A stretch of DNA of 64,000 nt from Massilia soli (GTDB lineage Bacteria; Pseudomonadota; Gammaproteobacteria; Burkholderiales; Burkholderiaceae_D). The stretch lies in NCBI RefSeq assembly GCF_016809835.1, contig NZ_JAFBIL020000002.1:248001-312000 (forward strand), in the 5' to 3' direction. Under the pieces are notes generated by a model. That model made no database searches. It was not told the origin of the DNA and saw only the letters and a list, made by a program, of their open reading frames with translations. Shown piece by piece: positions 20,312 to 60,822 of the stretch. The translations under genes were made by a program, and so were the position numbers. Within the stretch, counting starts at the first letter, position 1. Each line of letters begins with the position of its first letter.

Positions 20312-20675
20312 AATACGTTATTTTAAGACATAAGTCAGTGTTCACGGAAACAGGGCTGGGGTCAGTGCCGACTAACGTACATCGGCTCGGTAGCAATGCC
20401 GGAGCGACCACGTCCCTTTCTCGATCTTCCCCACATCACTGCCGTGAGCGGTACTGGACGATGAGCAGCGTGGATCCTTGAAAGCTATCCACCACTTGGT
20501 AAAGCAATCCTAACTGTTCGCCGTGCTAGGCTCGACATCGATGTCGTGTATTTCGCTGCTGGCGTCCGCACCCTGCGGCATGTCGTGCTTTTGGTTAGCG
20601 AAGGAATTGTGGTTCTGGGAGTTGAACCAGGGGTTGTGATATGCGTTGATGCAGTTGGTTAAGTTTTTGGAAGTG
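20312..20675. other. Gene-poor region upstream of the large kinase, with an ORF remnant
   Basis: About 360 bases of lower-GC DNA lie between the kinase start and the palindrome array. No intact gene is seen. It contains a 14-bp palindrome CGACATCGATGTCG (20533-20546) and a minus-strand open stretch described separately. Confidence 0.5.
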
Positions 20676-20690
20676 AAATCGCCTTCGGCG
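20510..20690 (-). pseudogene. Possible C-terminal gene remnant, no start codon
   Basis: A minus-strand frame of about 60 codons ends at TAG 20510-20512 and is preceded by an in-frame TAA near 20696. Its translation is hydrophilic, Asn/His-rich and protein-like (for example NAYHNPWFNSQNHN and MPQGADASSEIHDIDVEPS), unlike antisense noise in this genome. No upstream start codon exists before the palindrome at 20676, so it looks like the tail of a gene cut by the palindrome-array element. No family is recognised; it could also be chance. Confidence 0.3.
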
Positions 20691-20922
20691 ATTTAAGGAA
20701 AGGCAGGGGAGGCGGAAGGCAAGAAATCGCACAGCGATTTCCCCTAGTCAGATGAATCGGAGAGCCTTGCCTTGCCAAGGAGGTCTGCCTTGCAAGGCAG
20801 ACCCGTTCCGCAGGGGCGCGGCATGCCGCGCCAATTCCCTGCTCCACCGCTTGCAAGCGAAAGGCGGATTCCCGGCGCCGAGCGGTGCTCGGCGAAACCC
20901 CGAAAATCCCCCGCGACGCGGG
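20676..20922. repeat. Array of seven or more consecutive perfect short palindromes
   Basis: Perfect inverted repeats follow one another: 20676-20694 (AAATCGCC loop TTC), 20723-20741 (GAAATCGC loop ACA), 20770-20780 (CCTTG/CAAGG), 20782-20803 (22-bp uninterrupted palindrome centred on TTGCAA), 20815-20832 (18-bp palindrome centred on GCATGC), 20848-20859 (CGCTTGCAAGCG), 20876-20894 (CGCCGAGC loop GGT) and 20910-20922 (CCCGCG A CGCGGG). Together they make up about half the bases of this 247-bp stretch. It lies directly downstream of the tmRNA terminator. No credible ORF is present. It could be a highly structured RNA, a protein-binding array or a composite mobile element. Confidence 0.75.
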
Positions 20923-20938
20923 TTCGAGTCCCGCCGCC
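20915..20938 (+). repeat. Inverted copy of the tmRNA 3' T-arm/acceptor segment
   Basis: These 24 bases match the minus-strand tmRNA segment at 20995-21018 (GACGCGGGTTCGA-T/G-TCCCGCCGCC) with one mismatch, in opposite orientation, 56 bases away. The match stops at the acceptor, before CCA. A complete tRNA cloverleaf cannot be drawn around it, so it is a fragment, not a functional tRNA. Confidence 0.75.
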
Positions 20939-20952
20939 CGTTGGCGCAAACG

Positions 20953-20980
20953 AAAAAAAACCGCCATCGGCGGTTTTTTA
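20953..20980. terminator. Bidirectional intrinsic terminator downstream of tmRNA
   Basis: Stem CCGCC (20961-20965) / GGCGG (20969-20973) with a 3-base loop is flanked by an A-run (20953-20960) and a T-run (20974-20979). It can therefore terminate in both directions. It lies 8 bases past the tmRNA 3' CCA on the minus strand. Confidence 0.85.
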
Positions 20981-20987
20981 GCATACT

Positions 20988-21347
20988 TGGTGGAGGCGGC
21001 GGGAATCGAACCCGCGTCCGCAAGCACTCTACAGACAGTTCTACATACTTAGCACTGCCATTTAATTTAACCGGTACAACGCGGACGTGCACGCTGTGTA
21101 CAAGCGAGTTACCTATTATTTAGTCCGGAACTAAGTAACCCAGTTCAAGACGAGTCCCTGTAAATGACTCTAGAGCTTTTGACGGCCCACCCCAGGGACG
21201 AGGTGTTCTAGAGCTAGCAGCAATTAAGCTGCGAGTGCGTACGAGTTATCGTTTGCAGTTAAGTTTTTCAGGTTGTATTTACGAGGTAGCCCGCCCTCGG
21301 TATGCCCTGCTCTGCTTTGCAACCCACGTCGAAACCAGGTCGCCCCC
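20988..21347 (-). ncRNA. ssrA: Transfer-messenger RNA (tmRNA, SsrA)
   Basis: The roughly 360-nt RNA rescues stalled ribosomes by trans-translation with SmpB. On the minus strand it opens with GGGGGCGACCTGGTTTCGAC and closes with the tRNA-like end GGACGCGGGTTCGATTCCCG...CCACCA, CCA being encoded. The resume frame runs 21256-21224 and reads ANDNSYALAA-stop, which after the charged alanine gives the tag AANDNSYALAA with the LAA degron recognised by ClpXP. Protein-like ORFs drawn over this region are artefacts. An extended -10 promoter lies upstream and a strong terminator downstream. Confidence 0.97.
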
Positions 21348-40031: not shown

Positions 40032-40101
40032 ATTCCAAAATCGGGGACAGACCACCATTTTAGAAGATTCTAAAATGGTGGTCTGTCCCCGATTTTGGAA
40101 T
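40032..40101. repeat. 70-bp near-perfect palindrome (34-bp arms)
   Basis: Arms at 40032-40065 and 40068-40101 are exact complements around the 2-base centre GA. The core includes CGGGGACAGACCACC and its complement. It lies just after the rfaE1 stop and can form a very strong hairpin on either strand. The GGGGACAGACCAC core resembles dispersed palindromes common in Burkholderiales intergenic DNA (recollection, not checked). Confidence 0.9.
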
Positions 40102-40252
40102 CTTTCTGACCAGATTCGCTGTGTTGATGGGCTGCGGCGCACGGTTGATTCGGCTCAACCGGAGCAGGTCAGCCATGCCCCACGCTTGAGCCGTTGAGCG
40201 CGAGGGATCGCATCCGCTTTCCCCGCTTGACTTACTCACGGAGAAAATCAAC

Positions 40253-60474: not shown

Positions 60475-60566
60475 GCTGCCTCCGGTGCGGTGAGTGTCGA
60501 TCTCGATTCGTTGCAGCTTATACCGTATGCGGCGGGCCGGTAAACATCCGGCGCGCGCGTTGCGCT

Positions 60567-60572
60567 TATAAT
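60567..60572 (+). promoter_or_regulatory. -10 box for the btuB riboswitch transcript
   Basis: A perfect TATAAT lies just before the riboswitch. The -35 region lacks a good match, so the promoter may need an activator or be weak. Confidence 0.5.
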
Positions 60573-60575
60573 ATC

Positions 60576-60780
60576 GGTGTTTTGGTGCCCGCCGGCGTGA
60601 TCACGCTGGCAGTTAAACGGGAAACACGACGCTGCTGCGCGATACGCCAGCGGCCTGCGTGTGCTGCCCCCGCAACGGTAAACAAGCGTCGCCGCATGCC
60701 GGCGACTGGCCGCCCCGAACACCACTGTGCCATGGCATAGGAAGGTGGGGCGGTCTGACTTGCGAGCCCGGATACCGGCC
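60576..60780 (+). promoter_or_regulatory. Cobalamin (adenosylcobalamin/B12) riboswitch
   Basis: The conserved B12 box pieces are in order: GGTGTTTTGGTGCC at the start, TTAAACGGGAAACACG, GCTGCCCCCGCAACGGTAA, the J6/3 and P6 region (CACTGTG...GGAAGGTGGGGCGGTC) and the closing GAGCCCGGATACCGGCC that pairs with the start. It lies directly upstream of btuB. A later hairpin (60823-60850) is the likely expression platform. Cobalamin excess should turn the operon down. Confidence 0.96.
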
Positions 60781-60822
60781 AAAGCAGGTGGAAGCGCGCG
60801 CCCCTGGCCCGCCTTCCGTTGA

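Follow-up and report, generated by a model that had tools for sequence, protein, structure and literature searches.

A palindrome array beside the tmRNA gene of Massilia soli, probably a pile-up containing a small dispersed hairpin element

The dense cluster of perfect palindromes located next to the tmRNA gene (ssrA) in the analysed stretch of Massilia soli DNA (64,000 nucleotides, hereafter the window) is probably a pile-up at the ssrA 3' end, and the element E found twice in it would be a mobile palindromic element, non-autonomous and about 75 bp long, of the REP, MITE or BOX kind. E is apparently an undescribed and unnamed small mobile family of a whole bacterial family, and no published description of it was recognised in the open-access literature (subscription papers lay outside the survey). 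An odd palindrome cluster leads in this way to a mobile family that has clean E-bearing and E-free sites at housekeeping genes. It makes testable how palindromes stay perfect (selection or templated repair), which enzyme moves short hairpin elements that lack a neighbouring REP transposase, and why such elements land at gene ends and in hairpins already present.

Palindromes were defined as perfect inverted repeats with arms of at least 6 bases and loops of at most 8, and seven of them, with a summed arm length of 56, are found within the 247 bp at 20676-20922 (Table 1). In 2000 dinucleotide shuffles the mean number was 0.9 and the maximum 6, the summed arm length did not exceed 39, and none of the 2000 reached seven or 56, which bears out the dense array beside the tmRNA gene that the preliminary description had reported. 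In the window, 49 of 63753 frames of 247 bp (starts between 4997 and 20732) reach a summed arm of 56, and the densest spots are at 20724 (59), 5001 (57) and then 40062 (53), therefore the array is extreme and not alone. ORFs of 69 to 123 codons cross the array and are taken for putative chance frames.

Table 1. Features of the palindrome array and of the adjacent tmRNA locus (positions in the window)
Feature	Position	Strand	Remarks
Degenerate left-hand copy of tmRNA terminator region	20676-20715		hairpin 20676-20694 = AAATCGCC TTC GGCGATTT
Palindrome in the left-hand copy	20676-20694
Palindrome, hairpin GAAATCGC ACA GCGATTTC	20723-20741		conserved tmRNA-downstream block; in 13 of 14 aligned blocks, L046 without it
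E copy E_C, about 78 bp	20770-20848	+	inserted in first stem of E_B; R1 94.9 bits; copy belongs to training set A1
Possible short target duplication CTTGC	left 20771-20775, right 20850-20854	+	compared with blocks free of E_C
E_C tag CAAGGAG	20776-20782	+
Palindrome, 22 bp, no loop; E_C stem 1	20782-20803	+	followed by linker CGTTCC
E_C stem 2a	20810-20814 with 20838-20842	+
Palindrome, 18 bp, no loop; E_C stem 2b	20815-20832	+	with bulge AATTC and tail TCCACC in E_C
Older E copy E_B	20848-20909	+	stem 1 split by E_C
Palindrome, remaining centre of E_B stem 1, CGCTTGCAAGCG	20848-20859	+
Palindrome, E_B stem 2b	20876-20894	+
Palindrome	20910-20922		overlaps the T-arm copy
Copy of 24-nt tmRNA 3' end (T arm)	20915-20938	+	opposite to tmRNA
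Present tmRNA terminator	20955-20979		11-bp stem, T runs on both strands; outside the seven palindromes
tmRNA gene ssrA	20988-21347	minus	tag ANDNSYALAA; ARAGORN; Rfam RF00023, 212.1 bits

The palindromes had been described as not being copies of one unit, and this did not hold, because four of them form the hairpins of E, which is present twice: the two TTGCAA-centred palindromes together with the CATG- and GGT-centred ones are the two stems of E_C and E_B, spelled with different stem letters. Seemingly unlike palindromes can be identified as the same stems in other letters because of the shared plan, the alignment of 27 copies (A1) and the matches of the model built from that alignment (R1). 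Of the three remaining palindromes, one is an old tmRNA terminator copy, one a local hairpin that is conserved, and one a relic of the tmRNA T arm in inverted orientation. The second half of E_B scores 24.0 bits with R1, and E_B in the window is not recovered by this model as a whole copy. Twelve tmRNA-site matches in nine loci outside the R1 training set, some of them close kin of training copies, score from 48 to 80 bits, and two further ones, on the opposite strand of locus L037, score 23.2 bits. The CTTGC repeat flanking E_C, 5-6 bp at best, is a possible target duplication, too short when taken alone.

The consensus of E starts with the tag (A)AGGAG, followed by a perfect palindrome S1 (its centre usually CTTGCAAG), the linker CCGTTNC, a hairpin S2 composed of GCAGG/CCTGC, a bulge AAWYC on one side only and an inner palindrome that is perfect, and the tail TNCACC. 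Covariation of the stems was counted in the set of 27 copies and separately at the hprK-rapZ site. Among the 27 copies 95.8% of 543 cells in three helices are paired, and both sides have changed in 19 of the 21 pairs, these cells not being independent events because the rows are related; the covariation score is 0.582 versus 0.158 in shuffled alignments and at most 0.112 in slid structures. The hprK-rapZ set consists of 14 rows (an hprK-type coding end is upstream in 13 of them by pattern, and the gene is named in L101 only), in which 96.8% of 280 cells are paired and both sides changed in 11 of 20 pairs, with a score of 0.437 versus 0.135 (shuffled) and at most 0.140 (slid); the pair-type count at this site was no better than in shuffles, as it was reached by 106 of 500. 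Because covariation is seen at the hprK-rapZ site by itself, the pairing seems to be kept in place and not only by the choice of founder. The several dyads placed close together could also recall regulator-binding palindromes at ssrA, which is a very improbable explanation: the stem letters vary freely while pairing is kept, the opposite of what a sequence-reading dimer needs, and the copy number of E at ssrA differs among relatives. In integron attC sites, as in E, structure outlives sequence.

E is widely dispersed. With R1 at an E-value of at most 0.01 it was found in 50 of 100 genomes, own included, and 22 of these 50 match by construction because each gave a training copy. By taxon the matches fall in 46 of 60 genomes of the family, 4 of 40 from other families of the order and 16 of 17 of the genus, with up to 51 copies per genome by R1 (49 first-look candidates were scored per genome). 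The own genome holds four copies with E-values of 3.8e-9 or better, and elsewhere in the class weak matches (45.1 and 43.1 bits) occur in 2 of 184 genomes. A pattern scan of species genomes gave at least 120 stretches; among the matches listed are Janthinobacterium, Massilia, Duganella, Pseudoduganella, Undibacterium, Herminiimonas, Collimonas, Noviherbaspirillum and Lacisediminimonas, as well as assemblies labelled Burkholderiales, Burkholderiaceae, Oxalobacteraceae or Betaproteobacteria. Patterns for the two halves of the element gave 87 and 86 matches in four genomes versus 1 and 0 for reversed-pattern controls; in G000 (own), G001, G008 and G031 the halves mostly stand about 44 bp apart, and no wide pairs, as of an autonomous or long E, were noticed by eye.

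For genomic context, 128 pattern copies were taken, 28 at locus edges were dropped and 100 were scored with a simple gene finder of our own (77% coding). E is intergenic in 97 of the 100, in 55 tandem, 36 convergent and 6 divergent gaps, these not being 97 independent events because orthologous sites recur, and in the same DNA the gaps of at least 80 bp number 233, 71 and 83 respectively. In 41 of the 55 tandem gaps E points the same way as the upstream gene. Such a preference for gene 3' ends, together with the covarying stems, would suit a structured non-coding RNA or an mRNA 3'-end element, transcribed with the upstream gene and having hairpins that stabilise or end transcripts. This explanation, close to the structured RNA proposed in the preliminary description, is unlikely, since despite the strong stem covariation there is no excess of G-U on the strand read. 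The six outer pairs of S1 in 111 distinct copies (666 cells) comprise 637 Watson-Crick, 7 G-T, 13 A-C and 9 other combinations, and the six pairs of S2 in 107 parsed copies (642 cells) comprise 614, 3, 16 and 9. Because G-T is not favoured over A-C (10 versus 29, an imbalance that is only suggestive as the copies are not independent), the pairing may be kept at the level of DNA; the mismatch pattern fits DNA-level hairpins or templated repair, or else an RNA of the other strand, with which the transcript explanation would still be compatible. Further points against the transcript are that E, next to tmRNA, is placed past the ssrA terminator and in the orientation opposite to this gene, that a T run after E is missing, and that Rfam 15 has no match to E at gathering score: it returns only tmRNA and cobalamin in the window, and the best score of the array is 19.5 bits versus a gathering score of 46.

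The mobile element, which is the preferred explanation, is evidenced by sites with and without E. The insertion sites include hprK (HPr kinase) followed by RapZ in L101, glucose-6-phosphate dehydrogenase (zwf) followed by a HexR-like regulator in L050 (best NCBIfam match below cut-off), glutamate-5-semialdehyde dehydrogenase (proA) followed by a HemJ-like gene in L105 (match below cut-off), and Rho followed by ribosomal protein L31 in L024. The zwf-hexR set contained 30 loci, 2 of them unresolved and gaps above 260 bases seen in part; E is found in 7 of the 28 resolved loci (in one twice, in one with a shortened first stem) and the other 21 are without it, and R1 finds E in exactly those 7 loci and in none of the 23 others. 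The last codons and stop of zwf (LPED*, about 16 bp) stand before E and are repeated right after its CACC end, and they occur once in most E-less loci. In the E-less loci L246 and L249 the gene end is doubled, as if E had been lost. A second copy in the own genome splits one REP of a GTAG-type REP pair; the site is free of E in L263-L265, the pair being intact in L263 and L264 and reduced to a single shortened REP in L265. GTAG-type REP pairs were seen in L048 (1480-1660), L263 and L264.

In 28 of 127 copies and 9 of 55 site clusters a direct repeat (score of at least 9) begins at the 3' end of E, versus 1 of 381 swapped-flank controls; such a repeat is missing at 99 of the copies and 46 of the clusters. 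By a simple rule, which misses some partial copies (e.g. in L010), a second E lies beside 10 of the 28 and none was detected beside 18. Two of the nine clusters belong to a single gene site (hprK), another E, whole or partial, adjoins the copy in L010 and L159, and the repeat in L081 is a common CCCCTT/AAGGGG-like palindrome; with these discounted, the count comes down to about five unlinked kinds of site (hprK, zwf, proA, rho and a REP). The repeats measure 9 bp (REP loop), 12-17 (zwf), 15 and 23 (rho), 21-22 (proA) and 29 bp (hprK), and a spread from 9 to 29 bp is unusual for one enzyme. Inverted repeats (score of at least 14) flank 29 of 118 copies versus 5 of 354 controls, and a common larger palindrome surrounds E in many of these copies. 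In L138, L096 and L109 (Undibacterium) and in others, E belongs to a bigger composite repeat, in which it is enclosed by a larger inverted repeat whose arms resemble AAAAAATGG / CCATTTTCTG.

At the tmRNA locus itself, the hairpin at 20676-20694 is a direct repeat of 20958-20976 at a spacing of 282, and 20706-20715 (GGGGAGGCGG) matches the tmRNA 3' end GTGGAGGCGG at 9 of 10 positions (versus 20990-20999, spacing 284). Because 20676-20715 repeats 20958-20999 at 282-284 spacing, the whole segment stands between two copies of terminator and 3' end, and several relatives have a hairpin, a T run, a spacer and a GGAGGCG core at the position of the left copy. The suggestion of a composite mobile element has thus fared well, as two nested copies of the dispersed E are flanked by two DNA copies of the tmRNA terminator. 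It is proposed that a segment of about 206 bp carrying E_B would have come to stand between these copies by a tandem or insertion-linked duplication, and that E_C would have been inserted later into the first hairpin of E_B. The T-arm copy is an inverted repeat, 96% complementary to 20995-21018, and its counterpart in L046 matches tmRNA in 27 of 27 bases. It is placed directly 3' of the end of E_B, where other E copies have the duplicated target, which hints that E_B first landed at the ssrA end in the other orientation; no intermediate for such a landing was found. The T-arm copy was considered as a tRNA and rejected, ARAGORN predicting the tmRNA alone in the window.

A search with 20640-20990 gave matches in 41 of 100 genomes, own included, mostly in pieces; query positions 140-209 match at scattered places and the longest matches adjoin tmRNA, while no second place of the block was found by BLAST in the own genome besides self-matches. 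Fourteen tmRNA-linked blocks were aligned (A3), with L043 and L037, which also have E copies matching R1, being left out. The blocks share one order: first a terminator-like hairpin (in rows reaching it) and a GGAGGCG core resembling the 3' end of tmRNA, next a hairpin whose arms are of AAATCGC type (13 of 14), then a unit of two palindromes followed by a stretch similar to the T arm, and lastly the present terminator and tmRNA. Absence from relatives, or lack of both covariation and conserved order, had been named as grounds for rejecting the proposal, and neither was found, for the order is kept beside tmRNA and the stems of E covary. The E_C insert, amounting to 78 bp (20770-20847) within the first palindrome of the two-palindrome unit, occurs only in the window and in L041 (G008) and is missing in 12 of the 14 blocks. 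In L034 the tmRNA-site segment is present twice in tandem, and in one block of L033 and in L044 the two-palindrome unit is doubled inside the segment. A tmRNA-downstream unit with E is arranged in tandem with a 252-bp period in another genus (L037, 6704-7042). In genome G016 (L033, 4330-9013) a second block, 4.2 kb away, ends with 22 nt of the tmRNA 3' end, and the two blocks probably bound an ssrA-integrated island. Islands targeting ssrA likewise use the tmRNA 3' end as the repeated sequence, as described in the available part of PMC3146451; the segment of the window differs in its length of about 284 bp, which leaves no space for cargo or an integrase.

Among known repeats, REPs are the closest comparison, being short, palindromic and non-autonomous intergenic sequences, mostly between convergent or co-directional genes, in which complementary changes preserve the palindromes (available parts of PMC2817692 and PMC3733652). 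E shares all these features, occurs in several to many copies, mostly in convergent or co-directional gaps, and Y1 genes are present in 47 of 60 genomes searched, so that a diverged RAYT-driven REP/REPIN family of such size might be considered. This origin is quite improbable: the heads of E are (A)AGGAG and CCGTTNC instead of the GTAG or GT(A/G)G tag, it has two unlike hairpins, no E palindrome flanks a RAYT gene within 1.5 kb in the best 30 Y1 loci of a longer match list (21 from E-positive genomes), and in the own genome more than 250 kb separate the two Y1 genes from the E copies of their contigs. The direct duplications at several E sites are, to our knowledge, not expected from Y1 transposition, and E can be separated from REPs because it sits inside a GTAG-type REP. 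CGTC-tagged REPs, for which the available part of PMC3733652 reports a palindrome with unpaired tag and tail and no dedicated transposase, resemble E in these unpaired parts; they differ in the CGTC tag, the AT-starting stem and the CCA tail (CCGTT, a GC-starting stem and CACC in E), and E has a second palindrome upstream.

Like MITEs and the pneumococcal BOX, RUP and SPRITE repeats, among which target duplications are reported for BOX and RUP (available part of PMC3049150), E is small, structured, non-autonomous and multi-copy. It is non-coding and dispersed, has sites with and without the element, and shows target site duplications of variable length at about five kinds of site where tandem copies are absent. 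In contrast to those repeats, E is GC-rich, its duplications reach 29 bp, and clear terminal inverted repeats are missing (5' end AAGGAG versus GGTGNAGCAGGG, the reverse complement of the 3' end); BOX, RUP and ERIC are alike in kind only. No transposase for E was found, nor a carrier, with 0 pattern matches in viral contigs and no match to 20766-20910 in plasmids and phages (distant mode). Since no RAYT beside E, no carrier and, in four genomes, no long version were seen, we infer the mechanism of movement: an enzyme supplied in trans would read the fixed unpaired tags and hairpins, insertion would proceed by a staggered cut of variable length, and the palindromes would be kept as DNA hairpins. 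It is rather doubtful that E forms a distinct class of mobile element. Such an element would be non-autonomous and read through its hairpins, would leave long duplications of variable size (9 to 29 bp at clear sites) and might be copied in a SINE-like manner, by way of RNA and target-primed reverse transcription; it would be aimed at gene ends and at other hairpins, which would let hosts retain it at genes such as rho, zwf, proA, hprK and ssrA.

Two further features of the window deserve mention. A long inverted repeat with arms like CCAAAATCGGGGACAGACCACCATTTT is present at about 40033-40102, and another dispersed palindrome may exist because similar GGGGTC-GACC palindromes occur in a few fetched loci. 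A cobalamin riboswitch is located at 60566-60797 on the plus strand (Rfam, 76.2 bits).
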